Assembly (NCBI RefSeq): GCF_003789055.1
Contig: NZ_ML119095.1
Coordinates: forward strand, 1-64,000
Source of the DNA: Histidinibacterium lentulum
GTDB taxonomy: Bacteria > Pseudomonadota > Alphaproteobacteria > Rhodobacterales > Rhodobacteraceae
Length of the DNA: 64,000 nucleotides
Direction of reading: 5' to 3'
Position numbers and translations under genes: made by a program. Positions 128 to 48,075 of this stretch are shown here, one piece after another; positions within the stretch are counted from its first letter, which is position 1, and every line of letters starts with the position of its first letter. The notes below the pieces were generated by a model, which saw only the letters and a program-made list of their open reading frames with translations, ran no database searches and had not been told where the DNA came from.

Positions 128-142
128 TCTCTTCTGAAAACC

Positions 143-2044
143 TCATGCCGGCGTTTCCTCGACTTCCGCGCGGCTCACGGCGATCAATTCTATCGGGCCA
201 TCGTATGGTTCATCGAACGAAACTGTCACCTTGCAGCGTTCGCCGTCCTTGACGTCAACAGTGAGCACGCCAGAACCCGGGGTGCCCGCGTCTGCAGCCG
301 TCACGATAAGGCCCTCGGGCGCGTTCACCCCCGTGGCCTGGACCATCAATTCGATCGGTCCTGAGGCTTCCGGCGTGAAGTGAAGCTCACGGGATGTGGC
401 TGCTCCGGAGCTGTCTGAACGGATAAGGTTACGTACCTCGCGGAGAACAACCGGCTCCCGATCTCCAGCTGTGCCACGGCCGCCTGTGCCCTGGCCGGTT
501 CCGGAGCCGCTGCCTCCACCTTTACCGCCAGAACCCGTCCCGGTCTGGCTCCGACCGCCCTGCTCGCCTCCAGCAGGGCTCGGAGCCTTTCGAGACTTCG
601 ATTTTCGTCTTTTGGACTCGTAGGTATACCGCTCGGGATCATGCTCGGCGTTCGGATCGTCGGGTGTGTCGGTCTTGCCGGTCTCGGCGAAGAAACGGCC
701 CAGTTCGTCCAGGACGACGGAGCCTTCATGCTTGACGCCCGTCGTTGCCTTGATGATCTCCCTAAGTTCTTTGCCGAGACGCTTCATGGCCGATGAAGCG
801 TCTGCTCGCTTGCCGGCATCAGGCAGCCTTTCGGCGGAGAAGCCGTCATGTGCTGGGTTCTCAAGCTTCTTCAGCAGAACGCCAGCTTCAGTGTCATCCG
901 GTTCCACGACCACGACGAAGTCGCGCGATCCGCGGAACTGTGCCAAAGGATGTCCGAAGTGCCGGAGGTTGTCCGTGATCAGCATCCCATTTCGGATGAA
1001 GCCAACGCGGCAGGGCATTCCCTCTTCGATCAGCACTCGGACCCGCATCTTACCAAGCTTTGGGATCGTGAGGACCTGCTCTTCCGCATTGTCTGAAACG
1101 AGGCAACGATAGAGCTGCCCTGCAAAGGTCAGATCGGCCTGATGCCCCGTGCGCTCTGCGGCATCGATGATGTCCTGCCTCGCGAACAGCCCCTCGAGCG
1201 TGTTGCGATTGATGTTGATCCTCCCGTCGTCTACCTCGAATACCATCTGTTCGCGGTGAACGGCGCCGAAGAAGTTCGAGACGAGCGAATAGGTCATGCG
1301 CTCAGCCCAGTCGTCAGCCGCCCGGAAGCCCATGCAGAAGATCGAAGTGCCGATTTCGGTACGCGCCATCCATTCCGGCACTAGCGCGCGGTCAGTCACA
1401 GCCCGGAACCCCTCGGGATCCCCCCAGTAGCCCGTCGCCCTCTGCTTCTTGCCGTCCGGGTCTGTATGCGAAACCAGCTTCACCTTGCCTTGAGCGGCAA
1501 AAGCTTCGCTCTCTCCGTTCTTGTAAGTCGTAGCGTAAAACACCGTCTGGAGGTCGGATACGGCAAAGGACGCATTCTTGCCGATGCCGAAGGAGCCGCC
1601 GGAGTCGACAGTATCCTTGGCCGTCACGCCCGAGGCCTTGACGAGGGAATGAAAAGGCGTTTCTTCCTCGTCAGGTGGGCCAACGAGGCCGGTCGTGCTG
1701 CGATCGGCGATCTCGAGCACGGCGATCCTATCCGCGCCGATCACTTTGGACGCGTTCGCGAAAAACTCCTTTTCCCGGTCCTGTTTGGCCTCGGCGCTGC
1801 AAGCAGCAATCGTGCTCCTCAGGATTTCATGGGAAGGAAAGTCTGCGTGGTTGAGACCGAAAACATTGAACGACATTCTAACGGGATGCTCAGGCAATCC
1901 CGTTGCGGCATCACGGCTGTTTTGCCCGGCCTCCCTGGCGCAGCTGGCATAGGGCTCGTCTCGAAAGGTTTCAATTCCGGCATCGCCGAGCCCCTCCTTC
2001 TCGCCAGCCTCGTTGGCCAAGAACCTAAGAACTGGTTCAACCAT
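143..2044 (-). CDS. GHKL/HATPase-type ATP-binding protein, probable defence component
   Basis: A 633-residue protein with the three ATP-binding signatures of the GHKL fold: an N-box EAGQNSRDA (about 38-46), an EIADRSTTGL motif (111-120) and a glycine box GGSFGIGKNASF (149-160). The middle part has no motif I recognise. A low-complexity Gly/Ser/Lys-rich linker (about 465-520) precedes a beta-rich C-terminal domain of about 100 residues. Free-standing ATPases of this kind occur in defence islands with Vsr, C5 methyltransferases, Z1 ATPases and PD-(D/E)XK proteins; a Vsr/C5 pair lies at the far end of this window. It is preceded by a small partner gene 41 bases upstream and followed after 15 bases by an IS66 end, so downstream operon genes may be missing or displaced. 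The ATP-binding fold is clear; the defence role is inferred. Confidence 0.7.
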   Translation of the reverse strand: MVEPVLRFLANEAGEKEGLGDAGIETFRDEPYASCAREAGQNSRDAATGLPEHPVRMSFNVFGLNHADFPSHEILRSTIAACSAEAKQDREKEFFANASKVIGADRIAVLEIADRSTTGLVGPPDEEETPFHSLVKASGVTAKDTVDSGGSFGIGKNASFAVSDLQTVFYATTYKNGESEAFAAQGKVKLVSHTDPDGKKQRATGYWGDPEGFRAVTDRALVPEWMARTEIGTSIFCMGFRAADDWAERMTYSLVSNFFGAVHREQMVFEVDDGRININRNTLEGLFARQDIIDAAERTGHQADLTFAGQLYRCLVSDNAEEQVLTIPKLGKMRVRVLIEEGMPCRVGFIRNGMLITDNLRHFGHPLAQFRGSRDFVVVVEPDDTEAGVLLKKLENPAHDGFSAERLPDAGKRADASSAMKRLGKELREIIKATTGVKHEGSVVLDELGRFFAETGKTDTPDDPNAEHDPERYTYESKRRKSKSRKAPSPAGGEQGGRSQTGTGSGGKGGGSGSGTGQGTGGRGTAGDREPVVLREVRNLIRSDSSGAATSRELHFTPEASGPIELMVQATGVNAPEGLIVTAADAGTPGSGVLTVDVKDGERCKVTVSFDEPYDGPIELIAVSRAEVEETPA

Positions 2045-2085
2045 CGCCGCTAAATCTCCATTGTGCTGCCCTGTGCAAACGGCGC

Positions 2086-2307
2086 CTAGAGCTTGAAATC
2101 TCCGGACCCGCTGCTGTCTCCGTCGCCAAACTTCGACCGAGCAAACTCGATCTCCCGCTGCAAGGCGCGAAACATCTTCTTCACGTCCTCTTCGGTGTAG
2201 CTGTAGGCCGATTTGTTCGACAGGTTACCGATCAGTCGGATGTCCTTGAGGGCCCGGTTCACCCGGGCCTCAGCCAACCTCACAAAGCTCTCTCGCTTGT
2301 CCTTCAT
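2086..2307 (-). CDS. small partner protein of the HATPase gene
   Basis: A 73-residue charged protein starting MKDKRESFVRLAEARVNRAL and containing RLIGNLSNKSAYSYTEEDV, then a C-terminal helix. I recall similar small proteins encoded just upstream of HATPase genes in methyltransferase/Vsr-linked defence clusters; this is from memory, not a search. An upstream start at 2352 (88 residues) is possible, but the family-like sequence begins at this Met. There is no clear ribosome-binding site. A TATATAAG-like stretch lies only about 5-12 bases upstream, so a short or absent leader is possible. It is the first gene of a two-gene unit. Confidence 0.6.
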   Translation of the reverse strand: MKDKRESFVRLAEARVNRALKDIRLIGNLSNKSAYSYTEEDVKKMFRALQREIEFARSKFGDGDSSGSGDFKL

Positions 2308-2512: not shown

Positions 2513-2905
2513 CTAGAGATCGGCACCTAGGTGTGCACGTTGTTCTGCCCAATCGGCAGGGATCGGCTCCAGTACGCGCGCCAACGTCACCGCCGGCCCC
2601 TGCTTCCCATCCAGGATCGCCTCCGCGATGTCGGGCGCAAGTAGCGTCAGGCGCAGAACGCGGGTCATGTAGGACGGCGCGATCCCCTCGCGGTCGGCCA
2701 GTTCGGCGATGGTGGCGAACTCGCCCAACTCCAGCATGCGCTTCCAGCGGAAGGCGCGCGCCAGCGCTTTGATAAGTGCGCTGTCGGGCCTTCGCGGCTG
2801 CGCAGCGCCCTCTGGCAGCTGCATCTCCTTCCGCCCGCCGCGCTTCACGACGCGGAACGGGACGTGGAGCGTCACCGTCTCGGGAACCGGCTTGCCGCGG
2901 GTCAT
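2513..2905 (-). CDS. small HTH-type protein of the recombinase cassette
   Basis: A 130-residue protein starting MTRGKPVPETVTLHVPFRVV. Its middle contains a helix-turn-helix-like segment, FATIAELADREGIAPSYMTR (about 76-95), resembling ParB/KorB-like or recombinase-accessory DNA-binding helices. Its ATG overlaps the recombinase stop (ATGA, 2902-2905), so translation is probably coupled. Proteins of this type are commonly the last gene of serine-recombinase cassettes in alphaproteobacterial prophages, suggesting a role in recombination directionality or control. The function is not proven. Confidence 0.65.
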   Translation of the reverse strand: MTRGKPVPETVTLHVPFRVVKRGGRKEMQLPEGAAQPRRPDSALIKALARAFRWKRMLELGEFATIAELADREGIAPSYMTRVLRLTLLAPDIAEAILDGKQGPAVTLARVLEPIPADWAEQRAHLGADL

Positions 2906-4227
2906 GCAGCCGCCCCCATTTCTCCTGCCAGCATCTCGCGCGCGAGGCCGCCAAGGCCATCGACGCGCAGCCGCACGTTCAAGCCGTCCGCCCCGATATC
3001 GACTCGCGCGACCAGCAATCCAACGATGCGGGCCTGTTCTGCTGGGAAAAGCTCGTCCCACAGCGGATCGAGCTGCTGCAGCGCCGCGCGGGCATCAGCC
3101 TCGCTGATGTCGTCGGCATGGCCGCGTGCCGCCTTCCACGTCCCTGCCACGATCTCGGGCTGGCGAAAGACCGCGCGAAGCTGGTCGATCACCGCCGCCT
3201 CGATATCGCCCGCGGGCACGCGGCCGACCGGGCACGACCCGGCACCATGCTTCAGCACCGTCTGGCTGACATAATAACGGTATAGCCTGTCGCCCTTCCT
3301 GGTGTGCGTCGGCGAGAACGCAGCGCCATCGGGGCCAAAAAGCAGTCCCTTCAGCAGCGCCGGTGTCTCGGCGCGGGTCCGCGCGGCGCGTTTGCGGGGG
3401 CTTTCCTGAAGAATGGTGTGGACGCGGTCCCACATCTCGCGGTCGATGATGGCGTCGTGCTCGCCGGGATAGCTGTCGCCCTTGTGGACCGCCTCGCCGA
3501 TGTAAGCGCGGTTGCTCAGCATGCGGTAGATGTACTTCTTGTCGATCCGGTTACCGCGCGGGGTGCAGATGCCACGTGTGCCGACCTCCCGCGCCAGTTC
3601 CGTGCAGGACCCGATCTCGAGGAAGCGCTCGAAAATCCAGCGCACATTTACAGCGCTTTCGTCGTCGACCAGCAGCTTGCGGTTCTCGACCCGATACCCG
3701 AAGGGCGGGACGCCGCCCATCCACATCCCCTTCTTGCGGCTCGCGGCGACCTTGTCGCGGATGCGTTCGGCCGTCACTTCCCGCTCGAACTGGGCGAAGC
3801 TGAGCAGGATGTTCAGCGTCAGTCGCCCCATGGAGGTGGTGGTGTTGAACGACTGCGTGACCGAGACGAACGTCACGCCGTTCCGGTCGAATACCTCGAC
3901 CAGCTTGGCGAAGTCCGCCAGCGAGCGGCTGAGGCGGTCGATCTTGTAAACCACCACCACATCGACCAGCCCGTCCTCGATGTCTTCCATCAGCCGCTTC
4001 AGGCCGGGCCGGTCCAGCGTGCCGCCCGAGATGCCGCCGTCGTCATACTGATCGCGGACCAGCACCCAGCCTTCCGACCGCTGACTAGCGATGTACGCCT
4101 CGCAGGCCTCTCGCTGGGCGTGGAGGCTGTTGAACTCCTGCTCCAGCCCTTCCTCGGAGGATTTGCGTGTGTAGACCGCGCACCGCAGCTTGCGGACGAC
4201 CTTCGACTTCTCGGGCGGCTTCGTCAT
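2902..4227 (-). CDS. large serine site-specific recombinase (phage integrase)
   Basis: A 441-residue protein. The N-terminal resolvase domain includes CAVYTRKSSEEG with the nucleophilic serine (23 or 24), a VVYKIDRLSRSL segment, and the NILLSFAQFERE helix. A Recombinase domain follows (GGVPPFGYRV, then RGICTPRGNRIDKKYIYRML), then a C-terminal domain. It would integrate and excise the prophage by a serine-linked mechanism. The upstream open frame reaches 4707, but ATG 4227 overlaps the stop of the DUF2924-like gene (ATGA) and begins the conserved domain, so this start is preferred. It is transcribed toward the left end. Confidence 0.93.
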   Translation of the reverse strand: MTKPPEKSKVVRKLRCAVYTRKSSEEGLEQEFNSLHAQREACEAYIASQRSEGWVLVRDQYDDGGISGGTLDRPGLKRLMEDIEDGLVDVVVVYKIDRLSRSLADFAKLVEVFDRNGVTFVSVTQSFNTTTSMGRLTLNILLSFAQFEREVTAERIRDKVAASRKKGMWMGGVPPFGYRVENRKLLVDDESAVNVRWIFERFLEIGSCTELAREVGTRGICTPRGNRIDKKYIYRMLSNRAYIGEAVHKGDSYPGEHDAIIDREMWDRVHTILQESPRKRAARTRAETPALLKGLLFGPDGAAFSPTHTRKGDRLYRYYVSQTVLKHGAGSCPVGRVPAGDIEAAVIDQLRAVFRQPEIVAGTWKAARGHADDISEADARAALQQLDPLWDELFPAEQARIVGLLVARVDIGADGLNVRLRVDGLGGLAREMLAGEMGAAA

Positions 4228-4679
4228 GGCCGCCCCCTGTGGTTCTTGAGGCCGAAGAAGACCCAACCGTTCCAGCGCGTGCCGGTGATGGCGCGGGCGA
4301 TGGCGGACAGCGACTTGTAGGGCCGCCCCTGCCATTCGAACCCGTCGGCGGTGACGGTGACGACCTGTTCGACGCCCTGCCATTCGCGCAGAAGGCGCGT
4401 ACCGGTGATGGGGCGGTCGCGATCGGCGCGGATGCCGCGCTTCCTCTTGTCGCCGCCGTCCAGTTCCTCGCCCAGCCGCTCCAAGCGCCGGATCGTTTCG
4501 GGCTTCAGCCCGCCGTAGGCGAGTTCCTGGATGCGGTAAGCCAGGCGGGACTCGAGGTAGCGGCGGTTGAATGGTGGCGGCTCGCTGTCGAACAGGTCGC
4601 GCCACTGTTGCTTCAGGTCGGGTGTCGGCGTGCTCTTGAGCGCGGCCAGGCGCGCGGGGATGGGATCGGGCTTGTTCAT
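4224..4679 (-). CDS. DUF2924-like protein of the recombinase cassette
   Basis: A 151-residue protein containing LKQQWRDLFDSEPPPFNRRY, YRIQELAYGGL and, toward the end, VTVTADGFEWQGRPYKSLSAI followed by a GTRWNGWVFFGL ending. This pattern matches the DUF2924 family, which is nearly always adjacent to serine recombinases in alphaproteobacterial prophages. The C-terminal part resembles a small RAMA-like DNA-associated domain. It overlaps its neighbours by 4 bases on each side, so the whole cassette looks translationally coupled. The role is unknown; an accessory to recombination is plausible. Confidence 0.75.
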   Translation of the reverse strand: MNKPDPIPARLAALKSTPTPDLKQQWRDLFDSEPPPFNRRYLESRLAYRIQELAYGGLKPETIRRLERLGEELDGGDKRKRGIRADRDRPITGTRLLREWQGVEQVVTVTADGFEWQGRPYKSLSAIARAITGTRWNGWVFFGLKNHRGRP

Positions 4680-4879
4680 GCATTTCTCCGGCGAGTTGGA
4701 GTTGCATGACGGCATCGGTCGGGCGGATAGTGTAGGCAACGTTCTCCAGTATCGTCAGATACTTCGCCCGTCTCCCGCATCCGCAACCGAAGCAGCCCGA
4801 GTGCCAGCAGGCCGCACAGCTCGGCGCGGCGCTCGGCGGCGGTCATCTGGTCGGGCGGGAGCGGATTGGGTCGTTTCAT
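4676..4879 (-). CDS. small protein, first gene of the recombinase cassette
   Basis: A 67-residue protein starting MKRPNPLPPDQMTAAERRAE with LCGLLALGLLRLRMRE in the middle. Short proteins of this form usually precede the DUF2924 gene in such cassettes. The stop overlaps the next ATG (4676-4679). An upstream ATG at 4918 is open but adds only non-conserved residues. The function is unknown. Confidence 0.6.
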   Translation of the reverse strand: MKRPNPLPPDQMTAAERRAELCGLLALGLLRLRMRETGEVSDDTGERCLHYPPDRCRHATPTRRRNA

Positions 4880-5070: not shown

Positions 5071-7266
5071 ATGGCGCGGAGGAAGAGCGAATTCGGACCG
5101 AACCTCGGGAGTATCCTTCAGGGCGCCCCAGCTGCGCTGGTCCGGCAGTTTCTCGCCAGCTTCAAACGGCCCGACGACACTCTTCTCGCTCCGCCGGAAA
5201 TCATTGATGGCACGACCGATGATCAAGGCAAGGCCGCGCTGAGTGCGTACCTGCGTTCGGAGGACAAGGAAATCATCGGGCTACTTGAGGGCATCGCTGG
5301 CGCTCTGCTCGACATGGGCCAGGACAAGGGAGCGACCTCACTCGACACGGTTGCGGGGCAACGGCTGCAGAATGTCGACTACGACCATTATGAGTCCCAG
5401 CCTGACCTGCTGTGCAAGAGCATCTGGATGCGCACGGTCTTCCCGATGCACTTTCACGACGCCCAGAGCTTCTATGCCGCGCGGCGCTATCGAGAACGGC
5501 GGACGTACTACACATGCTGCGAGGTGGACTTCGACCACGATTCTGTTGCCGACGCAGAGGGAATCCCTGACGAGAAGCTCTGTGACGCTGTTCAGGAAGC
5601 TCTGGGACTGAAGGGCAAGGTCACCGCGTCCGTCCTCGAATTGCCCGAGACCGCCAACTACCCGCCGTCCTTCATGGTCGCCCTGCGCCATCCCGGGCCC
5701 CTGTCAAGTATCGACAATCATCGCGAGGAAGGGGGCTGGACCGTCCACTACTACAGGCCATCACACGAGGCTGTCCTGATCTACACGCCCAAGCTGAAGA
5801 AAATCGAGGTCGCATCAGCCAGCGGCGAGGTTCGCGAAAAAACCTCGAAAGTCTTCGCGGAGGTCGTTCTAGGGCGCCCGCCTTCGGCCAAGCCGCTGAC
5901 CCGCCGAGAGTTTAACCTCGAACGCTTCAGGTCCTCCTTCGATCTGGATCGCCCGGATTTCGACGATGTCGAGATCACGCTGGCGGCGGTAGTCGAGGCC
6001 GAGGTGCGCCTCGGCTCGTGGGGCCGGCGGCTGAACATCAAGGTGACCATAGAAGACACGATGGAGGACGTTGTCCGGAAATACGTCGCCAATTCAGCCA
6101 CCCTGATCCGGAGTTTCGGCTTCACAAAAATCGCCATCGCAATTGGTTACACCCGTCGATCAGACGGCAAGAAGGGAACCTTCCGGGTCTCGATCTCGAA
6201 TGGCAGCAGTTCGGACGTGCAGAGCATGCGCGATCCGTTCCTTCGGGACCTTGGGTTCCGACTGCTCGAACACTGGGGTCTTACGCAGAACCTGCGGACG
6301 CTCACCGATCAGGAACGGGCGCAGTGGTTCGGCTTTCTTCTGTCGCTGTACGACCTGCCCGGCGACACTGTTGCAGGTGCATTCTTCAACTCCGCGGGCG
6401 TCGATCCAGCCCGCTTGGTGAGTGCGAGATTGATTGCCCGCAAAGGGCGGCAGGTGATTGGGCTCGCCGAGGATGACGATGAGGTTGTCGAAGTTGAGCA
6501 GGAAACGGGTCCGGAGCCGGGGACGGTTCGACAAACCGGTTCCTTTGGGGAGGCGGACGGATTGCGTCTCGACACCAATGCGATCGAGTACGGGATCGAT
6601 CGAGCATGGCTCGCCGAAACCATCCACCAGGCGATAGCTGGCTCTCTCGGTATCAGGAACATCGAAACCATCAACGAGTTCCTCGTCTCGCTTGGGCCGA
6701 TTGCACTGGGTGAGCGAAAGGTCCCGCTTTACCTGGCGCGCCGCCTTGCCGATCTGAAAGCCCGCGAGAATGTCGAGAATGCGCTTCGGTCGCGACATAC
6801 GGCGGGTCCTGGTCTCGTACTCGCCGTGTCCAATGATCCACCACGATTCCTCGGGCCGAACGTCGTGATCGCGCTACGCGACCTGTTGCTTCAGGACGGA
6901 AGCCTCGGCGATCTGGACCAGGAGGAAATGGCTCGGCGATTCGAGGCGAACCGAACGCTGGCGTCCTCCGCGCAAGTCGCCCAAGTTGTACGACACACGC
7001 CTCGCTCTGCGACGCTCATCATCCCGGGTCTCGATCCGCTAACGCTTGACGGCGCGGGCCAGATCCAACTCTTCGAAAGCCTTGTTGAAGCGGCGACCGA
7101 TGGCACAGGCCAGCGGCTGACCAAGGTCCTGATGGACGGGATGGGGTCTGACAATCCCAGACAGCTGTTCTCTTCCGGCGCATGGGCGAAGGCGCATCCG
7201 ACTTACATCCGGCACGGCTCGAGCAATCGCTATTGGCGTCTCGGCGAGGCGACCGACACCGCGTGA
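5071..7266 (+). CDS. large protein of unknown function, candidate phage-borne cargo
   Basis: A 731-residue soluble protein with no membrane segment, signal peptide or motif I recognise. Visible features are a Cys/Asp/His-rich stretch RTYYTCCEVDFDHDSV (about 147-162), basic-hydrophobic alternating segments typical of an alpha/beta domain (about 300-400), an acidic patch EDDDEVVEVEQE (about 470-481), and a C-terminal VRHTPRSATLIIPGLDPLTL segment. It starts after a GAGGTGA site. It is transcribed alone, opposite to the recombinase cassette and ahead of the early genes. Prophages often carry cargo at this spot, including anti-phage genes. No function can be assigned from sequence; defence is only a positional guess. 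Confidence 0.7.
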   Translation: MARRKSEFGPNLGSILQGAPAALVRQFLASFKRPDDTLLAPPEIIDGTTDDQGKAALSAYLRSEDKEIIGLLEGIAGALLDMGQDKGATSLDTVAGQRLQNVDYDHYESQPDLLCKSIWMRTVFPMHFHDAQSFYAARRYRERRTYYTCCEVDFDHDSVADAEGIPDEKLCDAVQEALGLKGKVTASVLELPETANYPPSFMVALRHPGPLSSIDNHREEGGWTVHYYRPSHEAVLIYTPKLKKIEVASASGEVREKTSKVFAEVVLGRPPSAKPLTRREFNLERFRSSFDLDRPDFDDVEITLAAVVEAEVRLGSWGRRLNIKVTIEDTMEDVVRKYVANSATLIRSFGFTKIAIAIGYTRRSDGKKGTFRVSISNGSSSDVQSMRDPFLRDLGFRLLEHWGLTQNLRTLTDQERAQWFGFLLSLYDLPGDTVAGAFFNSAGVDPARLVSARLIARKGRQVIGLAEDDDEVVEVEQETGPEPGTVRQTGSFGEADGLRLDTNAIEYGIDRAWLAETIHQAIAGSLGIRNIETINEFLVSLGPIALGERKVPLYLARRLADLKARENVENALRSRHTAGPGLVLAVSNDPPRFLGPNVVIALRDLLLQDGSLGDLDQEEMARRFEANRTLASSAQVAQVVRHTPRSATLIIPGLDPLTLDGAGQIQLFESLVEAATDGTGQRLTKVLMDGMGSDNPRQLFSSGAWAKAHPTYIRHGSSNRYWRLGEATDTA

Positions 7267-34297: not shown

Positions 34298-36707
34298 GAA
34301 GAGGGTCAGCGTCCGCCTCGCGGCCGTGGGCGGACGGCAGGTGCGCGCCGAACTCGAAGGCGTGGGCGAGGCCGGGTCGCGCGGCTTCGGACGGCTGAGC
34401 CGGGAGATGGAAGCCGCGAACGCCCGGCTCGCGGCCTTCTCGCGGCGGGTGCGGGTCGCGGCTGCCGCTGCCGTGGCCGCCGCAGCCGCTGCTGGCGTGG
34501 CGATGATCCGGTCCAGCCTGCAGACGGTCGATGCGCAGGCGAAGCTGGCGCAGTCGCTCGGCACCACCGTCGCCTCGATCCAGACGCTGGAGCGCGCGGG
34601 CGATCTGGCGGGCGTCTCCATGTCCGGCATCGAGCAGGCCACCAAGGATCTGACGCGCCGTCTCAGTCAGGCGGCCGCCGGGACCGGCCCTGCTGCCGAC
34701 GCGCTCGACCGGCTGGGGCTTTCAGCAAATGAGCTGATCGCCTTGCCGCTGGACCAGCGCGTGGGCGCGATCAACGCGGCGATCGAGAGCTTCGTGCCTG
34801 CCGCCGAGCGCGCGGCGGTCGCGGGCCAGCTCTTCGGCGAGGAAGGCTCCATCGCGATGAGCCGGATCGACACCGCGACGCTGCGCCAGGCGACAGAGGA
34901 CGTCCTCGCCTTCGGGGTTGTCGTCTCCGAGCAGGACGCCGACCAGATCGAGCGGACGAACGACGCCATCTCGCGGCTCGGGTTGGTCTGGCGCGGGCTC
35001 TCGAACCAGTTGGCGGTCGCAGCGGCACCTGCGCTGGAAGCCGTCGCCGATGCCATGGCGGCGGTGGCCAGCCGCACCGGGCCGCTCGGCATCGCGATCC
35101 GCGGTCTCTTGGACAACATCGGCCGCCTGACCACCTATGCCGCCACCTTCGCGGCGTTCCTCGCGGGACGTTGGGTCGCCGGCATGGCGGCTGCGGCGCT
35201 CTCGGTCCGGGGCCTCGCCACGGCGCTCGTTGTCCTGCGCGGGGCGCTGATCCGCACCGGCATCGGCGCGCTGATCGTCGGCGCGGGCGAGCTCGTCTAC
35301 CAGTTCACCCGGCTCGTCTCCGGCGCCGGCGGTTTCGGAGAAGCGATGTCGCTCCTGAAGGACCTCGCGGTCGAGGTCTGGGAACGCATCAGTATGGGCG
35401 CGGCGGCGGCGGGCGCGGCCGCCACGGCGATGTTCTTCGACCTGAAGGCGGATGCCGCATCGGGCATGCAGAGCGCCATCGAGAGCGTGGTGGGCTTCGG
35501 CAACACGGCCGCGAACACCTTCGAAGGCGCCTACGAGGCGATCAAGGCGATCTGGGGCCTGCTGCCCGCCGCCATCGGCGATCTCGCGTTCCAGGCGGCC
35601 AACAGCCTGGTCGATGGCGTCGAGGCGATGCTGAACGGGGTGGTCTCGCGGATCAACGGCTTTATCGGCGGCATCAACCAGGGGCTCGAAGCGCTCGGGT
35701 CGGAGCGGCGCATATCGCTGGTTCCGGACCTCGACCTCGGCGAGATCGAGAACCGCTTCGAGGGAGCGGCGACTGCCGCAACCACGGCAGCTCAGGCGGC
35801 CTTCGATCGGGCCTTCGAGGACAATCCGCTCTCCGCGCCCGATCTCGGTCTGACCGAGGCGGCGAACAGGGCGCTCGAGTCCGCCAACCTTTACCGCGGC
35901 GCGGCGCGCGACCTGGCGGAGGGGGCCCGTGCGCCCCTCGAAAGCTGGCAGGCGCTGCGCGATGCCGTACGCGGCACCGACGAGGACGGCGCCGACGCAC
36001 TGGCCGAGACCACCGCTGCGGCGGAGCGCCTGGAGACGTCCCTCGGCGACGCCGGGCGCGCCGCAACAGATGCAGGTGTGGCGGCCGGAGCTGCTGCTGC
36101 GGTAGCGGAGCCCGCGACCGACGCGGCCGTCACCGGCTGGCGGGCGGTCACCGCCGCGCTCTCCGACTACGCCAGCAAGGCCCGCGAGATCGGTGGCGAC
36201 ATCGGCCAGAGCCTCGTCGGCGCCTTCCAGTCGGCCGAGAACGCGGTGGGCCAGTTCGTGAAGACCGGCAAGCTCGACTTCCGCGATCTGGTGACGTCGC
36301 TGCTGGCCGATCTCGCCCAACTGGCGGCGCGGCGGTTCATCCTCGGGCCGATCGCCAATGCGCTCTCCGGCGTCTTCTCCGGGGCGGGCGGCATCTTCGC
36401 CAACGTCCTGCATGCGGGCGGGATGGTCGGATCGGCTGGACCCTCGCGGATGGTCCCGGCCATGGCCTTCGCCGCCGCGCCGCGGATGCATGGTGGCGGC
36501 ATGGCCGGGCTTCGTCACGACGAGGTGCCCGCGATCCTGCAGCGCGGGGAACGCGTGCTGTCGCGGCGGGAGGCACAGAGCTACGGCGCGGGCGGCGGGG
36601 TCAACGTGACCATCATGGCCCGCGACGCCGAGAGCTTCCGGCAATCGCGAACGCAGGTCGCCGCGGATCTCGCCCGCGCCGTGTCGCTCGGTCGGAGGGG
36701 CATGTGA
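34290..36707 (+). CDS. tail tape-measure protein (gpH-like)
   Basis: An 805-residue protein, Ala/Gly-rich and largely helical. It has a SLGTTVASIQTLERAGDLAG segment (about 90-109), several hydrophobic stretches (about 55-70 and 270-360), and a lambda tape-measure C-terminal domain (GKLDFRDLVTSLLADLAQLA about 663-682, then MHGGGMAGLRHDEVPAILQR). The length sets tail length: about 800 residues suggests a tail near 120 nm by the usual rule of about 0.15 nm per residue. It overlaps the GT extension by 8 bases. Confidence 0.92.
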   Translation: MAEKRVSVRLAAVGGRQVRAELEGVGEAGSRGFGRLSREMEAANARLAAFSRRVRVAAAAAVAAAAAAGVAMIRSSLQTVDAQAKLAQSLGTTVASIQTLERAGDLAGVSMSGIEQATKDLTRRLSQAAAGTGPAADALDRLGLSANELIALPLDQRVGAINAAIESFVPAAERAAVAGQLFGEEGSIAMSRIDTATLRQATEDVLAFGVVVSEQDADQIERTNDAISRLGLVWRGLSNQLAVAAAPALEAVADAMAAVASRTGPLGIAIRGLLDNIGRLTTYAATFAAFLAGRWVAGMAAAALSVRGLATALVVLRGALIRTGIGALIVGAGELVYQFTRLVSGAGGFGEAMSLLKDLAVEVWERISMGAAAAGAAATAMFFDLKADAASGMQSAIESVVGFGNTAANTFEGAYEAIKAIWGLLPAAIGDLAFQAANSLVDGVEAMLNGVVSRINGFIGGINQGLEALGSERRISLVPDLDLGEIENRFEGAATAATTAAQAAFDRAFEDNPLSAPDLGLTEAANRALESANLYRGAARDLAEGARAPLESWQALRDAVRGTDEDGADALAETTAAAERLETSLGDAGRAATDAGVAAGAAAAVAEPATDAAVTGWRAVTAALSDYASKAREIGGDIGQSLVGAFQSAENAVGQFVKTGKLDFRDLVTSLLADLAQLAARRFILGPIANALSGVFSGAGGIFANVLHAGGMVGSAGPSRMVPAMAFAAAPRMHGGGMAGLRHDEVPAILQRGERVLSRREAQSYGAGGGVNVTIMARDAESFRQSRTQVAADLARAVSLGRRGM

Positions 36708-37333
36708 TGGCGTTTCACGAGGTCCGGTTTCCCGACAACATCAGCCGAGGTGCGCGGGGCGGACCGGAGCGGCGCACGCAGATCGTCGAGCTCGCCTCGG
36801 GCGACGAGGAGCGCAACGCCAGCTGGGCCAATTCGCGCCGCCGCTACGATGTCGCCTATGGCATCCGCCGCGCCGACGATCTGGCCGCCGTCGTCGCCTT
36901 CTTCGAGGCGCGCAATGGCCGCCTGCATGGCTTCCGGTTCAAGGACTGGGGTGACCACAAGTCCTGCCTGCCTTCGGGCACGCCGTCGCCCACCGATCAG
37001 TCTATCGGCACGGGCGACGGCGCGACGACCGCCTTCCAGCTGGTCAAGCGCTACGCCTCGGGTGCGCAATCCTGGACGCGCGCCGTCGCGAAGCCGGTGA
37101 CCGGAACCGCGCGCATCGCGCTCGGCGGGGTCGAGCAGCCTTCCGGCTGGTCGGTCGACACCGCCACCGGCGTCGTCACCTTCAGCACCGCGCCGGGCGC
37201 TGGCGCCGCCATCACCGCGGGCTTCGAGTTCGACGTGCCGGTCCGTTTCGACACCGACGCGCTCGACGTGACGCTCGACCTCGAGCGGCTCGGCTCGATC
37301 ACCTCCATCCCGCTTCTGGAACTGCGCCGATGA
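36707..37333 (+). CDS. DUF2460 distal tail protein (GTA gp12-like)
   Basis: A 208-residue protein starting MAFHEVRFPDNISRGARGGP and containing DVAYGIRRADDLAAVVAFFE and GFRFKDWGDH. This is DUF2460, homologous to gp12 of the Rhodobacter gene transfer agent, the distal tail component under the baseplate. The start overlaps the tape-measure stop. The next three genes keep the GTA gp13-gp14-gp15 order. Confidence 0.92.
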   Translation: MAFHEVRFPDNISRGARGGPERRTQIVELASGDEERNASWANSRRRYDVAYGIRRADDLAAVVAFFEARNGRLHGFRFKDWGDHKSCLPSGTPSPTDQSIGTGDGATTAFQLVKRYASGAQSWTRAVAKPVTGTARIALGGVEQPSGWSVDTATGVVTFSTAPGAGAAITAGFEFDVPVRFDTDALDVTLDLERLGSITSIPLLELRR

Positions 37334-38214
37334 AGTCCCTCGACCCCGACCTGCAGGCCCATCTCGACGAGGGAACGACGACGCTCGCCTGGTGCTGGCG
37401 GATCGTGCGCGCCGACGGCACGAGTTTCGGCTTCACCGACCACGATCGGACGCTCAGCTTCGAGGGGACGGATTTCGAGCCCGAGAGCGGGCTGACGGCC
37501 TCCGAGGTCCGTTCCGGCTCGGACCTCTCGGTCGATGCGCAGGACGCCGAGGGCGTGCTGACCTCGGACCGGATTACCGAGACCGACATCCTCGACGGCC
37601 GCTGGGATAACGCCGAGGTCGAAGTCTGGCGGGTGAACTGGGCCGACACGAACCAGCGCGTGCTGATGCGGCGCGGGGCCATCGGCCAGATCCGGCGCGG
37701 GCGGCTGGCCTTCGTCGCCGAAGTCCGCTCGCTCGCGCATGTGCTTGGCCAGACGATCGGGCGGACGTTCCAGGCGACCTGCGATGCCGCGCTCGGCGAT
37801 GCGCGCTGCGGCGTCGATCTGGAGAACCCGGCGTTCAAGGGCACGAGCGTCGTGATCGACCTTCTACGCGACCGCGCCTTCACCGCTTCGGGCCTCGGCG
37901 GCTTCGCCTCCGGCTGGTTCACCTTCGGGACCATCGAATGGACCAGTGGCTCCAACGCGGGGCGTCGGGCCGAGGTTCTCGGCCATGATGTGACGGACGG
38001 CATCGCCGTGCTGACCCTTCTCGAGGCGCCGGTGCGCGAGATCTCCGAGGGCAATGCCTTCACCATCCGTGCGGGCTGCGATAAGCGGATCGAGACCTGC
38101 GGCGCCAGGTTCGCCAACACGGCCAACTTCCGGGGGTTCCCGCACATCCCCGGCCAGGATGCCGTGCTGCGCTACGCCACCAAGGATGGCGGCCACGAGG
38201 GAGGCGTGCTGTGA
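37330..38214 (+). CDS. DUF2163 baseplate hub protein (GTA gp13-like)
   Basis: A 294-residue protein (MKSLDPDLQAHLDEGTTTLA; WCWRIVRADGTSFGFTDHDR) with the C-terminal RAGCDKRIETCGARFANTAN and FRGFPHIPGQD cysteine region typical of DUF2163. In the gene transfer agent the homologue is an iron-sulphur-containing hub protein of the tail tip, so Cys residues in this region may bind a cluster. It overlaps its neighbours by 4 bases on each side. Confidence 0.92.
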   Translation: MKSLDPDLQAHLDEGTTTLAWCWRIVRADGTSFGFTDHDRTLSFEGTDFEPESGLTASEVRSGSDLSVDAQDAEGVLTSDRITETDILDGRWDNAEVEVWRVNWADTNQRVLMRRGAIGQIRRGRLAFVAEVRSLAHVLGQTIGRTFQATCDAALGDARCGVDLENPAFKGTSVVIDLLRDRAFTASGLGGFASGWFTFGTIEWTSGSNAGRRAEVLGHDVTDGIAVLTLLEAPVREISEGNAFTIRAGCDKRIETCGARFANTANFRGFPHIPGQDAVLRYATKDGGHEGGVL

Positions 38215-38657
38215 CGCAACCTCTCGCATCGGCCGACCCCGCGCGTGTCGTCGCCGTCGCACGCTCCTGGCTCGGCACGCCGTACCACGACCAGGCCAGC
38301 CTGCGCGGCGTCGGTTGCGATTGCCTCGGGCTCGCGCGGGGGGTCTGGCGCGACGTGGTGGGGCCGGAGCCGTTCCCGATTCTGCCTTACAGCCGCGACT
38401 GGGGCGAGACCGGCCCGCGCGAGGTTCTGGCCGAAGGCGCGCGGCGCATGATGATCGAGGTGTCGCCTGCCGAGGCCGGTCCCGGCGCGCTGGTCCTCTT
38501 CTGCATGAGGCCCCGCGCCATCGCCAAGCATGTCGGGATCCTCACCGGTCCTGCCACCTTCCTCCACGCCTATGAGCGGCTCGGCGTGATCGAGGAACCG
38601 CTCACCAATGCCTGGCGGCGGCGCATCGCCTTCGCCTTCCTCTTCCCGCAACGCTGA
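38211..38657 (+). CDS. NlpC/P60 tail peptidase (GTA gp14-like)
   Basis: A 148-residue cell-wall hydrolase with the NlpC/P60 catalytic Cys in GVGCDCLGLARGVWRD (about 34-39) and the His in IAKHVGILTGPATFLHAYER (about 107). The GTA gp14 homologue opens the peptidoglycan during DNA entry from the tail tip. It is translationally coupled to the hub gene before it and followed 9 bases later by the gp15-like gene. Confidence 0.92.
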   Translation: MTQPLASADPARVVAVARSWLGTPYHDQASLRGVGCDCLGLARGVWRDVVGPEPFPILPYSRDWGETGPREVLAEGARRMMIEVSPAEAGPGALVLFCMRPRAIAKHVGILTGPATFLHAYERLGVIEEPLTNAWRRRIAFAFLFPQR

Positions 38658-38666
38658 GACCCCGAC

Positions 38667-41600
38667 ATGGCAACGCTTGTTCTCGGTGCAGCCGGCGCCG
38701 CCATCGGCGGTTCGATCGGCGGGGCGATCCTCGGCGTGAGCGCCGCGACCATCGGCGGCTTCATCGGCTCGAGCATCGGCTCGGTCGTCGACAGCTGGAT
38801 CATCTCGTCGCTGGCGCCGACCCAGCGCATCGAGGGCGCGCGGCTCGACACGCTGCGCATCACCTCGGCCACCGAGGGCGCGGTGATCCCGCGGCTCTAT
38901 GGCCGGATGCGGATGGGCGGCAACATCATCTGGGCGACCGATTTCCGCGAGGAGACGAAGACCACGACGCAGGGCGGCGGCAAGGGCGGCGGGGGCGGCA
39001 AGGTCAAGACCACCGAGTATCTGTACTACGCCAGCTTCGCGGTGGCCTTGTGTGAAGGCCCGATCACCGGCATTGGCCGGATCTGGGCCGACGGCAAGCC
39101 GATGGACCTCTCCGGCGTCACCTGGCGCTGGTATCCCGGCGACGAGGCGCAGACGGCGGACCCGTTCATTGCGGGGAAGATGGGCGCAGCCAACACGCCC
39201 GCCTATCGCGGCACCGCCTATGTCGTCTTCGAGGAACTGGCGCTTTCGACCTACGGCAACCGCCTGCCGCAGCTGTCCTTCGAAGTCTTCCGGCCGCTCG
39301 CCGATCCCGACACCGCCGAGGGGCTGACCCGCGCCGTCACCATGATCCCGGCCTCGGGCGAGTTCACATATGCCACGCAGGCCATCCGCAAGACCGATGG
39401 CGGCGCGACGATGCCCGAGAACCTGAACGCGCTGGCCGACTCCACCGACATGGTGGAGGCGCTCGACCGGCTGCAAGCGATGGCGCCTGCGGTCGAGAGC
39501 GTCAGCCTCGTCGTGGCCTGGTTCGGCGACGACCTGCGCGCGGGCTCCTGCAAGGTGCGGCCGGGCGTCGAGGTCTCGGCCAAGTCGACCACGCCCGCCA
39601 GTTGGTCGGTGAACGGCGTGAGCCGTGCCAACGCCTTCCTGGTCAGCCGCGACGACCAGGACCGCCCGGTCTATGGCGGCACGCCGTCCGACTTCGCCGT
39701 GGTGCAGGCGATCCAGGAGATGAAGGCGCGCGGGCTGCGCGTGACATTCTACCCATTCATCCTGATGGACGTGCCGCCCGGCAACACCCTGCCGAACCCC
39801 TATTCCGACAACGCCGCCGAGACCGGCCAGCCCGCTTTCCCCTGGCGGGGCCGGATCACCTGTTCTCCAGCGGCAGGCTACGCGGGATCGGTCGACAAGA
39901 CTGCCACGGCCGCAAGCCAGGTCGCGGCGCTGTTTGGCGCGGCGACACCTGCGAGCTTCAGCGTGGCGGGTCAATCGGTTTCGTGGACAGGCACGCCCGG
40001 CGACTGGGGCCTGCGCCGCATGGTGCTGCACTATGCCCATCTCTGCGCGGCGGCGGGCGGGGTCGATGCCTTCCTGATCGGCACCGAGATGCCGGGGCTG
40101 ACGACGGTCCGCTCGGGCGCGGCCACCTATCCGGCGGTGCAGGGCTATCGGGACCTCCTTGCCGATGTGCGGTCCATTCTCGGGGCCGGGACGAAGATCG
40201 GCTACGCCGCCGACTGGTCGGAATACTTCGGGCACCAGCCGGGCGACGGCTCGGGCGACGTGTTCTTCCACCTCGATCCGCTCTGGGCGGACCCGGAGAT
40301 CGATTTCGTCGGCATCGACAATTACATGCCGCTGTCGGACTGGCGCGACGGGTTCGAGCACGCGGATGCGCAGGCGGGCTGGCCTGCGATCTACGACCGG
40401 GCCTATCTGCAGGGGAACATTGCGGGCGGGGAAGGCTTCGACTGGTTCTATGCCAGTGCGGCTGATCGGGTGGCACAGGTGCGCACCCCGATCAGCGATG
40501 GCGCGGCGGGCAAGCCATGGGTTTTCCGCTACAAGGATCTTCGCGCCTGGTGGTCGAACGCGCATTACGACCGCCCGGGCGGGGTGGAGAGCGGCACGCT
40601 GACGGCGTGGGCGCCGGAGTCGAAGCCGATCTGGTTCACCGAGCTCGGCTGTCCCGCCATCGACCGGGGCACGAACCAGCCGAACGTCTTCTTCGACCCG
40701 AAGTCGTCCGAGAGCTTCACGCCGCATTTCTCGCGGGGCTGGCGCGACGACGCGATCCAGCGCGCCTATCTCGAGGCGACGTACCTCTGGTGGGGCGTCC
40801 CGGCGAACAACCCGGTGTCATCGGTCTACGGCGGCCGGATGGTGCATGTGCCGGAATGCGCCGCCTGGACCTGGGACGCGCGGCCGTACCCGTTCTTTCC
40901 GGCGCTGACCGATGTCTGGACGGACGGGGCGAACTGGCGGCTGGGGCACTGGCTGACCGGACGGCTTGGCGCGGTGTCGCTGGCGGCGCTCGTGCGGCAC
41001 CTCTGCCTGCGCGCCGGGCTGCCCGAGTCCCGGATCGACGTCACCGGCCTCTGGGGCGCGGTCGAAGGCTACGCCATCACGGCGCTGGAAAGCCCACGCG
41101 CCTCGATCACAACGCTGTCGCGGCATTTCGGCTTCGACGCCGTCGAGACAGAGGGGGGGATCCGCTTTGTCATGCGCGGCCGGGCCTCCGTCGCCACCCT
41201 CGCGCCCGACGATCTGGTGGCCACCCGCGAGGGCGATGTGCTGGAACTGACGCGCGGCCAGGAGACCGAACTGCCGCAGGCCCTGAAATGGCAGGTCGCC
41301 CGCGCCGACGAGGATTACGACGCGGCCCTCGTCGAGGCCCGGCGCATCACCGTGGACACGACCCGGATCGCGTCCGAGTCCTTTCCAATGGCGGTGCCGC
41401 CCGAGGAGGCCGAGAGGCGCTGCCGCCGCGCGCTGATGGAGGCGTGGGTGGGCCGCGAGACGGCGGCGTTCCGTTTGCCACCCTCGCGCCTCGCGTTCGA
41501 TCCGGCCGATGCGATCCGGCTCGCGCATGACGGGCGTCTGGTCGATCTGCGGCTCGTCTCCATCGCCGACGCGGCAGCGCGCGGCATCGAGGCGGTGCGG

Positions 41601-42632
41601 CAGGACCGTGCGACTTACGATCTGCCGCCCGGCGATCCCCGCGCGGCGTCGCTGACGCGGGCCGTGGTGTTCGGCGCGCCGGACGCGGTGCTGATGGACC
41701 TGCCGCAGCTGACCGAGGACCAGCCCGCGCATCGACCGTTTGTCGCGGCGCACGCTCTTCCCTGGCCGGGCGAGATGGCGGTGTTCCGCAGCCCCTCGAC
41801 GGACGGGTTCGAGTTGCTGACCACGTTCGGCAGCCGCGCCCGGATCGGAGCGCTGGTCTCGGACTTCTATCCGGGCCCCACCTCACGCTTCGACCACGGC
41901 AATGCGCTTGTGGTCGATCTGCTCACCGGCACGCTGGAGAGCGTCACCGACCTGACGCTGTTGGGCGGCGCCAATGCGCTGGCTATCGAGAGCGCGCCCG
42001 GCACCTGGGAGATCGTGCAGGCGGGCGCGGCCGAGCTGCTGGCGCCGGGTCGATACCGGCTGACCCGGCTCCTGCGCGGCCAGCGCGGCACCGAGGGCGC
42101 GATGGGCAATCCGGCGCCCGCTGGCGCTCTTGTCGTGGTGCTGGACGCGTCGCTGGCGTCCCTGCCGATTGCCGAGGCCGATCTCGGATTGCCGTGGAAC
42201 TGGCGCATCGGTCCGGCGAGCCGCCCCGTCAGCGACGAGACCTATGTGGCGCAATCCTTCACGCCCGCGGGCGTCGGGCTGCGGCCGTTCTCCGGCGCCC
42301 ATGTCGAGCAGCCGTGGCGCAGGCCGCGCACGCCCGGCGATCTGACGATCCGCTGGACGCGCCGGTCCCGAGCTCTCGCGGCCGACAGCTGGGGCGGGCT
42401 AGAAGTGCCGCTCGGAGAAGAGCTCGAAGCCTACGAGGTCGAGATCCTTGATGGCGCGACCGTTAAGCGGGTGCTGAGCACCGCCACCACCAGCGCGGTC
42501 TACACCGCCGCAGACCAGACCGCCGATTGGGGCGCGCCGCTCGGCCCCGGTGACACGCTCGACAGCCGCATCTACCAGCTCTCCGCCCTCGTCGGGCGGG
42601 GCGCGCCCAAGACCCTCACGCTGATACTCTGA
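38667..42632 (+). CDS. baseplate megatron / host-specificity protein (GTA gp15-like)
   Basis: A 1321-residue protein homologous to gp15 of the Rhodobacter gene transfer agent. It starts with a hydrophobic Gly/Ala-rich segment (GAAGAAIGGSIGGAILGVSA). Next is a region with VKTTEYLYYASFAVALCEGP, then a TIM-barrel-like domain (about 440-710; IGYAADWSEYFGHQPGDGSG and WFTELGCPAIDRG). A phage-tail domain and a beta-rich C-terminus (about 1000-1321; YRLTRLLRGQRGTEGAMGNP) complete it. It forms the tail tip that contacts the host surface. Confidence 0.92.
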   Translation: MATLVLGAAGAAIGGSIGGAILGVSAATIGGFIGSSIGSVVDSWIISSLAPTQRIEGARLDTLRITSATEGAVIPRLYGRMRMGGNIIWATDFREETKTTTQGGGKGGGGGKVKTTEYLYYASFAVALCEGPITGIGRIWADGKPMDLSGVTWRWYPGDEAQTADPFIAGKMGAANTPAYRGTAYVVFEELALSTYGNRLPQLSFEVFRPLADPDTAEGLTRAVTMIPASGEFTYATQAIRKTDGGATMPENLNALADSTDMVEALDRLQAMAPAVESVSLVVAWFGDDLRAGSCKVRPGVEVSAKSTTPASWSVNGVSRANAFLVSRDDQDRPVYGGTPSDFAVVQAIQEMKARGLRVTFYPFILMDVPPGNTLPNPYSDNAAETGQPAFPWRGRITCSPAAGYAGSVDKTATAASQVAALFGAATPASFSVAGQSVSWTGTPGDWGLRRMVLHYAHLCAAAGGVDAFLIGTEMPGLTTVRSGAATYPAVQGYRDLLADVRSILGAGTKIGYAADWSEYFGHQPGDGSGDVFFHLDPLWADPEIDFVGIDNYMPLSDWRDGFEHADAQAGWPAIYDRAYLQGNIAGGEGFDWFYASAADRVAQVRTPISDGAAGKPWVFRYKDLRAWWSNAHYDRPGGVESGTLTAWAPESKPIWFTELGCPAIDRGTNQPNVFFDPKSSESFTPHFSRGWRDDAIQRAYLEATYLWWGVPANNPVSSVYGGRMVHVPECAAWTWDARPYPFFPALTDVWTDGANWRLGHWLTGRLGAVSLAALVRHLCLRAGLPESRIDVTGLWGAVEGYAITALESPRASITTLSRHFGFDAVETEGGIRFVMRGRASVATLAPDDLVATREGDVLELTRGQETELPQALKWQVARADEDYDAALVEARRITVDTTRIASESFPMAVPPEEAERRCRRALMEAWVGRETAAFRLPPSRLAFDPADAIRLAHDGRLVDLRLVSIADAAARGIEAVRQDRATYDLPPGDPRAASLTRAVVFGAPDAVLMDLPQLTEDQPAHRPFVAAHALPWPGEMAVFRSPSTDGFELLTTFGSRARIGALVSDFYPGPTSRFDHGNALVVDLLTGTLESVTDLTLLGGANALAIESAPGTWEIVQAGAAELLAPGRYRLTRLLRGQRGTEGAMGNPAPAGALVVVLDASLASLPIAEADLGLPWNWRIGPASRPVSDETYVAQSFTPAGVGLRPFSGAHVEQPWRRPRTPGDLTIRWTRRSRALAADSWGGLEVPLGEELEAYEVEILDGATVKRVLSTATTSAVYTAADQTADWGAPLGPGDTLDSRIYQLSALVGRGAPKTLTLIL

Positions 42633-42642
42633 AGGCCATCCC

Positions 42643-43719
42643 ATGTCCGACGCCACGACCCATCTCCTGCTGCCCTACATCCTGGCGGCGCAGGCCCAGA
42701 AGCACGTCACCCACAACGAGGCGCTGCGGCTGCTCGACGGGCTCGTGCAGCTCTCCGTGCTCGACCGCGATCTGACAGCGCCGCCCGGCAGTCCCGCCGA
42801 TGGCGATCGCTACATCGTCGCCTCGGGCGCGACGGGCGAATGGTCCGGATGGGACCTGAACGTCGCGCTCTGGACCGATGGCGCCTGGCTGCGACTTCCC
42901 CCGCGGATCGGCTGGCGCGCATGGGTCGAGGACGAGGGCCTGCTGCTGGTCTACGATGGCGCGGGCTGGCTCGGGACCACACCGGCGGCGCTGCAGAACA
43001 TGGCGCTCCTCGGGGTTGGCACCACGGCGGATGCATCGAACCCGTTCTCGGCCAAGCTCAACGCCGCGCTCTGGACGGCGAGGACCGTGGCCGAGGGCGG
43101 CACCGGCGACCTGTTCTACACCATGAACAAGGAGGCGGCCGGCGACGATCTCGGTTTGACCCTCCAGACCGGCTTCGTGACCAAGGCGCTGGTGGGGCTG
43201 TTCGGGTCGGACCGCTTCCGGCTCGCGGTCTCCGCCGACGGCAGCACCTTCTTCGACGGGCTGAGCGTCGACAACGCCACCGGCATTGTCGATCAGCCCC
43301 GGCTGCCGCGGTTCAAGGCTTACACGAACTACGACAACTACGTCGGCGTCGGCACCTGGACCAAGATCGGCCTTAACAACACCGACTACAACGATCAGGG
43401 CGCGTTCGACGCCGTGAACAACCACTTCGTCGCCCCCGTGGACGGCACCTACCTCTTCGGCGCGACTCTGCTGTACAAGATCAACGCCAGCGCCACCGCC
43501 CGCATGCGCGGGCGGCTCGTCCTGAACGGCACGACCGAAATCCGCGGCTCCCTCGGCGAAATCTCCGCCACTCATGTCTCGCTCGCTACCGCGATCTGGC
43601 TTCAGACCATGGTGCCGCTGACGGCAGGCGATACCGTCGAGCTGCAGGGGTATTTCCGGGTCGCGGACGGCTACTTCGCCGCCGACCACACGTCCTTCTG
43701 GGGCTGCAAGGTCGGCTGA
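42643..43719 (+). CDS. DUF2793 tail fibre with C1q-like C-terminal domain
   Basis: A 358-residue protein. Residues 1-115 are DUF2793 (HLLLPYILAAQAQKHVTHNE; ALRLLDGLVQLSVLDRDLTA), a tail-attachment module common in rhodobacterial phages and GTA clusters. After a linker, the last 135 residues (FKAYTNYDNYVGVGTWTKIG; NHFVAPVDGTYLFGATLLYK) form a C1q/TNF-like jelly roll, a fold used by receptor-binding proteins. It is probably the trimeric adhesin that selects the host. Confidence 0.82.
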   Translation: MSDATTHLLLPYILAAQAQKHVTHNEALRLLDGLVQLSVLDRDLTAPPGSPADGDRYIVASGATGEWSGWDLNVALWTDGAWLRLPPRIGWRAWVEDEGLLLVYDGAGWLGTTPAALQNMALLGVGTTADASNPFSAKLNAALWTARTVAEGGTGDLFYTMNKEAAGDDLGLTLQTGFVTKALVGLFGSDRFRLAVSADGSTFFDGLSVDNATGIVDQPRLPRFKAYTNYDNYVGVGTWTKIGLNNTDYNDQGAFDAVNNHFVAPVDGTYLFGATLLYKINASATARMRGRLVLNGTTEIRGSLGEISATHVSLATAIWLQTMVPLTAGDTVELQGYFRVADGYFAADHTSFWGCKVG

Positions 43720-43738
43720 GCGGCGGAAGGAGGATCCG

Positions 43739-44026: not shown

Positions 44027-44061
44027 CCGCTCAACACCCCCGTTCACCAGCCCAACCGCAC

Positions 44062-44084
44062 CCGCCCTCGAGGCGGTTTTTTTT
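44062..44084 (+). terminator. rho-independent terminator of the tail operon
   Basis: A 5-bp GC stem CCGCC/GGCGG with a 5-base loop is followed directly by eight T residues (44077-44084). It ends the late tail unit; the lysis genes start 17 bases later, so they may be expressed by readthrough or from a nearby promoter. Confidence 0.8.
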
Positions 44085-44101
44085 CGTTTCGGAGGACCCT
44101 C

Positions 44102-45196: not shown

Positions 45197-45222
45197 TCAA
45201 GAGCCGAATTGGAGCCTCAAGG

Positions 45223-45702: not shown

Positions 45703-45741
45703 CTGATGTTCCTTTCGAGGTTGGATGTGTGGGCTGGCAGA

Positions 45742-48075
<2,334 letters not shown>

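Follow-up and report, generated by a model that had tools for sequence, protein, structure and literature searches.

The ATPase gene at the left end of the window (the whole stretch of 64,000 nucleotides analysed here, carried on a contig, C15, of 64,549 bases) and the small gene ahead of it are probably the 5′ portion of a mobile restriction locus with six genes, in which genes S, A, B and C are joined by a C5 methyltransferase gene (C5) and a Vsr nuclease gene. An IS66-family element splits this locus within gene B, and the remaining genes lie on a second contig, C13. The Vsr/C5 pair near the other end of the window is instead part of an MZA system. Sequence comparison establishes the gene set, its conservation, its linkage to C5 and the IS66 split. 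We consider M33, as the S-A-B-C module is called below, most likely to be a candidate helicase-less restriction module driven by a GHKL ATPase, and propose that this ATPase could act as a clamp that licenses the nuclease.

Results

The ATPase M33A and the small gene S

The left end of the window carries the following features.

1–127: terminal part of IS66-A, an IS66-family element that interrupts M33B; the contig breaks here (from ends and repeats)
128–146, minus strand: first codons of M33B, whose start codon (144–146) overlaps the stop of M33A; the rest of the gene is on C13 (from sequence)
143–2044, minus strand: M33A, an intact gene for a putative GHKL-type, paraMORC2-like ATPase (ORF call, PDC-M33A match, motifs)
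2086–2307, minus strand: small gene S, first gene of the M33 operon (conserved ahead of A; alignment)
2902–4707, minus strand: large serine recombinase of the island; the N-terminal part of the ORF may be untranslated (Pfam; homologues)

In the ORF list M33A is a 633-residue frame with an ATG start, and in profile searches it matched PADLOC PDC-M33A (E=3.6e-97) and zero Pfam or NCBIfam families. S encodes 73 residues and gave no convincing family match in Pfam, PADLOC, NCBIfam or a further profile search. Nevertheless, a homologue of S sits directly ahead of the ATPase in 13 of 23 A-B-C loci (see below), and S is therefore not a chance ORF. Both genes are thus real, as an earlier note on this DNA had supposed, and the Gly/Ser linker that it described is plainly visible in the M33A sequence. 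The beta-rich C-terminus appears in an AlphaFold2 model whose pLDDT of 44.5 is too low to count. Loci L002, L007 and L009 also have a large serine recombinase next to M33. Beside the recombinase of the window, positions 5071–7266 (plus strand) encode a 731-residue protein without a Pfam match; it matches phrog_37634 and has a 37% homologue in the same place in L009 (4680–7091).

GHKL-type motifs, reported in the earlier note, are present and ordered in M33A (RExxQNxxDA, DxxTTGL, GGSFGIGK and GT), with key residues invariant or nearly so among relatives: in an alignment of 18 sequences, R37, E38, Q41, D45, D114, T117, G119, G150, G153, G155, G232 and T233 do not vary. Profile support for the GHKL class is weak, with HATPase_c (E=0.0099) matched in 2 of 10 remote members of the family and, in a profile search, in none of 18 nearer relatives. 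When M33A was compared with MutL by hhalign, the alignment covered little more than the N-box or the G2 box (E of 0.012–0.055), and one comparison with GHKL sets aligned another stretch altogether. Profiles built from M33A and from the remote branch of its family were run against the Protein Data Bank sequences and returned nothing useful. Given these profile statistics and an unusable structural model, the motifs are the main basis of our GHKL call. A motif count (49 of 741 ORFs, all within the M33A family) was set aside as circular.

An ExxxH motif of M33A, E395-N-P-A-H399, is invariant in all 18 nearer and all 10 remote relatives, two sets whose homology is clear (hhalign probability 100, E=2.8e-42). 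The hallmark by which Iyer et al. (2008; PMC2292703) recognise paraMORC2 is a conserved ExxxH within the C-terminal region of the S5 domain. The GHKL-type motifs and ExxxH together suggest that M33A is a member of this family, with its ExxxH presumably also located in an S5 domain.

An IS66 element separates M33A from the rest of its operon

C15 begins with a stretch that reads ...AGAAGAGA then GTAAGCGGCG, and C13 ends with CGCCGCTTAC then AGAAGAGA.... The 8-bp duplication AGAAGAGA, together with matching inverted repeats, flanks the IS66-A join on both sides; its copy at 128–135 of the window is the duplication made by IS66 in M33B. On C13, one ORF runs from the end of the insertion element into B. 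The strain's own B and C, 91–93% identical to the copies in L009/L008, occupy the very end of C13, beside a second C5 gene and a second Vsr gene (93.7% and 87.2% identical, respectively, to the copies in the window). Because the L009/L008 copies match the PDC-M33B and PDC-M33C profiles, the PDC-M33 trio is complete: the window holds A and, across the IS66 element, the end of C13 supplies B and C. From the C13/C15 repeats and from relatives in which A and B overlap uninterrupted, we conclude that the strain's own locus consists of S, A, B (interrupted by IS66), C, C5 and Vsr; it adjoins tRNA-Ser, and the large serine recombinase lies beyond S. The earlier gene set, limited to the small gene and the ATPase, had missed B and C. 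An interruption this near to the start of B may impair the M33 system of this strain.

S-A-B-C operons and their partners in other genomes

A genome scan recovered eight relatives of M33A (52–95% identity). In all eight, the ATPase is followed by B (~278 residues), C (~253 residues), a C5 gene and a Vsr gene, and five also have S. Gene C is DUF6339. L005 and L006 carry a different C5 subtype, which shares at most 30% identity with the C5 of the window, and the Vsr genes of L003, L005 and L007 are cut by contig ends or shortened. A Vsr/C5-type defence system, the kind of system first proposed for the ATPase, is thus supported by its relatives. The order then proposed, with Vsr upstream of the small gene, does not hold in close relatives, where S-A-B-C is followed by C5 on the opposite strand and Vsr comes last, but Vsr/C5 genes do lie upstream of M33 in plasmids of Gram-positive bacteria and Deinococcus.

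The A-B order also occurs on plasmids of Lactococcus, Priestia, Planococcus, Arthrobacter, Ligilactobacillus, Deinococcus, Paenarthrobacter, Halobaculum, Halomicrobium and Enterococcus, and in all of these except Enterococcus the third gene was recognised as C. Across 23 non-redundant A-B-C loci, C is present in 22, C5 in 20, Vsr in 15 and S in 13. This count leaves out L029, where a 4.5-kb contig holds A, B and part of C; L043, where a truncated A is accompanied by S alone; and the near-copies L083 (of L082), L069 and L077 (Lactococcus, of L078) and L079 and L080 (of L073). Full flanks were not included for the remote matches G006, G219, G259 and G299 of the order scan; in the short stretches from G219 and G299, Vsr adjoins A. 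As background for the C5 linkage, 41 genomes of relatives of the window's genome (~152 Mb, sums made by hand), a sample distinct from the plasmids, hold 58 matches to PF00145, so that a random 16-kb stretch would contain a C5 gene in less than 1% of cases.

The partners beyond A-B-C bear on whether the methylase and nuclease are parts of the system or mere neighbours. Partner lists for the plasmid loci, which come from incomplete gene tables, give Vsr and AlwI in Planococcus, Vsr and a type II enzyme in Arthrobacter, a type II enzyme in Paenarthrobacter, and a MutH/Sau3AI-family nuclease (11706–13055 of L070) and a C5 gene with the Priestia trio. C5 is missing, within the stretch examined, from three of the 23 loci: Ligilactobacillus (N6 methylases with HsdS, MmeI, helicase and GIY-YIG genes), Lactococcus (AlwI, N6 methylases and AbiG) and Enterococcus (AIPR). 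Vsr is absent from eight. A-B-C stays constant while its partners change, and the PADLOC entry comprises M33A, M33B and M33C without a methylase; moreover, PDC candidates were, according to the part of their description available, found through ‘guilt-by-embedding’. These points would fit a self-contained anti-phage system, S-A-B-C, that rides in restriction-modification islands. We regard this alternative as a serious minority view, about a third as probable as the six-gene locus, because C5 accompanies the operon in 20 of 23 loci from several phyla, far above background, and because the loci without C5 still adjoin other restriction or abortive-infection genes. Variable partners notwithstanding, homologues of the ATPase are not consistently without Vsr/C5 genes, the pattern named at the outset as contrary evidence.

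That M33A is instead a GHKL signalling or chaperone protein with no role in defence is improbable. Its lack of a Pfam family and the weak GHKL profile evidence would allow such a function, but the gene has restriction neighbours and a patchy distribution (15 of 390 genomes of the order at E<=1e-3 and 11 of 398 of the phylum), and several copies adjoin a recombinase and tRNA-Ser.

Three further observations concern the operon. First, an AlphaFold2 model of M33B reached a pLDDT of 68.1, and Foldseek found nothing for it at E<=0.001; the top rows, cytokine receptors and antibodies, were not used. Second, DUF6339 genes are broken at contig ends in G113 (C28/C57) and G330 (C4/C12), so that insertion elements may lie in M33 loci there too. 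Finally, a search for phage-borne copies matched one phage record.

The Vsr/C5 pair of the window heads an MZA system

The right end of the window carries a second system.

59054–59551, minus strand: Vsr of the second system (MZA head), not a partner of 143–2044 (profiles, tree, L145)
59484–61163, plus strand: C5 methyltransferase of the second system (MZA head) (profiles, tree, L145)
61165–61659, minus strand: C-terminal remnant of a PDC-S31/DUF2971 gene that is located between C5 and MzaE and disrupted by IS66 (PADLOC, L145)
61662–64000, minus strand: IS66-family element (IS66-B), extending beyond the window to about position 64174 of C15 (Pfam transposase; boundary from L145)

Pfam and NCBIfam matches bear out both genes of the pair, although the C5 ORF as called probably starts too early, since several relatives begin further in, at about LPSTFGIVDLF. 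Both of the strain's copies keep what we take to be the catalytic motifs of these enzymes (RPD and HGCFWH in Vsr; GGPPCQ, ENVKG, QxRHR and GNAVPP in C5).

Four lines of evidence place this pair at the head of an MZA locus. First, the duplication CAAAGCGT flanks the IS66-type element at the right end of C15 and recurs after an IS66-type end that heads contig C1, the second element being recognised by eye from its ends and repeats. Second, C1 then carries MzaE, MzaD, MzaC and MzaB, 86–93% identical to the genes of a same-genus genome and matched by Pfam as AIPR, DUF4420, Z1 and HATPase_c_3. Third, an uninterrupted locus, L145 of genome G253, matches, in order, 59160–61661 of the window (98.3%), 64175–64422 of C15 (98.8%) and 130–8579 of C1 (97.3%). 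Finally, in a tree of 44 C5 proteins, the C5 of the window is sister to that of L145 (support 100/97) within a clade of seven that comprises it and six MZA-linked sequences (100/98), whereas the C13 C5 is not in this clade but in a set of nine, where its neighbour is the M33-linked L007. We accordingly assign the pair, by these sequence criteria, to an MZA system whose body is on C1. The Z1, DUF4420 and AIPR genes that were expected to the left of the window, beyond IS66, are thus found to its right, beyond the other IS66 element. The L145 and IS66 data further indicate that the gene between C5 and MzaE (PDC-S31, DUF2971) has been broken twice by IS66 elements; because it occupies the same position in L145 (10721–11608) and L146, one PADLOC candidate is embedded in MZA.

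These results leave very little room for the reading with which the analysis of this DNA began, in which the Vsr/C5 pair at 59054–61163 and the ATPase were once contiguous and were parted by a prophage, a metal block and IS110: the two share a contig, and the window C5 and Vsr closely resemble the true partners on C13, but the tree, the IS66 duplications, the bridging locus and the Mza genes of C1 contradict it, the ATPase has its own B, C, C5 and Vsr on C13, and the gene order in relatives differs.

Two observations concern the left flank of the pair. In G253, the MZA block directly follows a stretch (1–8610 of L145) that is 88.8% identical to 36562–45173 of the window, and 45173–59160 of the window therefore looks like a later insertion. 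Separately, 57159–57229 repeats the flank just 3′ of tRNA-Ser(gga) on C13 (91.5% over 71 bases) and is separated from Vsr by an IS110 element at 57400–58698 (Pfam transposase gene). The repeat prompted us to consider tandem islands at tRNA-Ser, an idea that we rejected because the window contains no piece of at least 14 bases of the 3′ end of the C13 tRNA and because the same MZA head has another left flank in L145.

One type of C5/Vsr head with different GHKL bodies

A C5 related to that of the window at E<=1e-40 is present in 46 of the 390 genomes of the order that were scanned. These hold it in 48 places, of which 47 were inspected (the second place in G387 was left out). All four of MzaB, MzaC, MzaD and MzaE lie alongside in 23 of these places and one or two Mza genes in 3; a hybrid set (below) occurs in 4, M33 A-B-C in 2 (the C13 locus being counted with its A on C15) and S with a remote A in 2, and 1 is the pair of the window itself. 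The remaining 12 have no Mza, hybrid, M33 or S genes in the stretch examined, and several of these stretches end at contig ends.

The hybrid set bears out the association with Z1 genes that had been suggested for this ATPase, since remote members of its family do sit with Z1 and DUF4420 genes. Seven such loci (L044–L047, L067, L068 and L180) combine Z1, a DUF4420-type gene, a remote M33A (A2), two further genes (B2 and C2) and C5, with Vsr in six and the seventh, L046, cut by a contig end; the Z1 and DUF4420 matches to Pfam and PADLOC were tested on L044. C2 of L067 matches DUF6339 (25.0 bits against a cut-off of 23.2, E=1.8e-5), and hhalign supports kinship of C and C2 (E=1.5e-5). The comparison of B with B2 found no similarity (E=0.12), and we therefore claim no kinship between them. 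Of 38 loci that encode some member of this ATPase family, near or remote, S is present in 20, Z1 with DUF4420 in 7 and both in none, a pattern with a chance of 0.0025 if the loci were independent, which they are not. L179, L180 and L183 entered this count through the C5 search and have C5 by construction.

On the C5 tree, the MZA label changes 11 times, at least 9 of these changes being forced by well-supported branches, which indicates that partners have switched repeatedly; the label is also somewhat clustered, with 25 of 500 shuffles giving as low a number. Judged by gene content, the same kind of C5/Vsr head is found with MZA, with the Z1-DUF4420-paraMORC2 hybrid and with M33.

Discussion

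Relation to known systems

The A, B and C proteins match the three profiles of PDC-M33, a candidate in PADLOC-DB 2023, but those profiles name neither S nor the C5/Vsr partners found here. The paraMORC2 restriction operons of Iyer et al., whose account includes paraMORCs with helicases like those of the hybrid set, methylases and Vsr (PMC2292703), resemble M33 in ordered GHKL-type motifs, ExxxH, C5 and Vsr neighbours and mobile spread. By contrast, the S-A-B-C branch has neither a helicase gene nor an RE-fold DUF4420 gene. MZA (MzaABCDE) shares the same kind of C5/Vsr head and a GHKL ATPase with M33, but MzaB is of another GHKL family (HATPase_c_3) and M33 is without Z1, DUF4420 and AIPR; with MzaC or MzaD in none of the 23 A-B-C loci, the genes around 143–2307 fall outside the MZA definition. 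The hybrid operons fit the description of the ‘Type I’ putative Z1/DUF4420/cytosine-methylase system of Miller et al. (2022; PMC9523054), in which a three-gene core is joined by three additional genes and DNA repair endonucleases are present. The extra three may correspond to A2-B2-C2, whereas M33 is without the Z1 and DUF4420 core. Another GHKL family has been linked to C5 and Vsr in the portion available of Bellieny-Rabelo et al. (2021; PMC8011034); a Pfam search did not find its domain in M33A. The literature searched contains no mention of DUF6339 and, in the parts accessible, none of PDC-M33, even in papers on PDC systems, which does not prove their absence from print.

A possible clamp-licensed nuclease

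We propose that C5 would mark self DNA, that the GHKL ATPase, with B and C, could form an ATP-driven clamp resembling MutL or MORC proteins that closes on unmarked incoming DNA, and that the closed clamp would license a nuclease to act on the unmarked DNA. Vsr would fill this nuclease role in the present locus, and other hosts would use enzymes of the MutH/Sau3AI type or of type II. The argument is drawn from MutL and from the looping model of Iyer et al., who, in the sections available, describe Vsr and MutH as nucleases served by MutL in mismatch repair (PMC2292703); Vsr and MutH/Sau3AI, both types served by MutL, are each found beside M33. By analogy only, VcSduA, a GHKL–nuclease fusion once named paraMORC3, lends support, as the part of its description available reports that phage defence needs both ATPase and nuclease (PMC12137116). 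As a counterpoint, Vsr might only repair deaminated methylcytosine.

Implications

More generally, and far more tentatively, GHKL modules may be bodies that can be exchanged for one another on a shared, mobile C5/Vsr head. MZA, the Z1-DUF4420-paraMORC2 hybrid and helicase-less M33 would then be stages of one modular restriction architecture in which S marks the branch without Z1 and DUF4420, and MutL-type clamps would power Vsr/MutH nucleases in restriction much as MutL does in mismatch repair.

There are several implications. First, contigs broken at repeats can lead a reader into joining the wrong halves. Second, an uncharacterised PADLOC candidate, PDC-M33, with its DUF6339 protein, is tied to prokaryotic kin of MORC ATPases proposed in 2008 and C5, together with a nuclease of the Vsr or MutH type, emerges as its likely partner. 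Finally, at least three different GHKL bodies are found with the same methylase/nuclease head, and whether a MutL-like clamp drives a Vsr nuclease in restriction is now a testable question.
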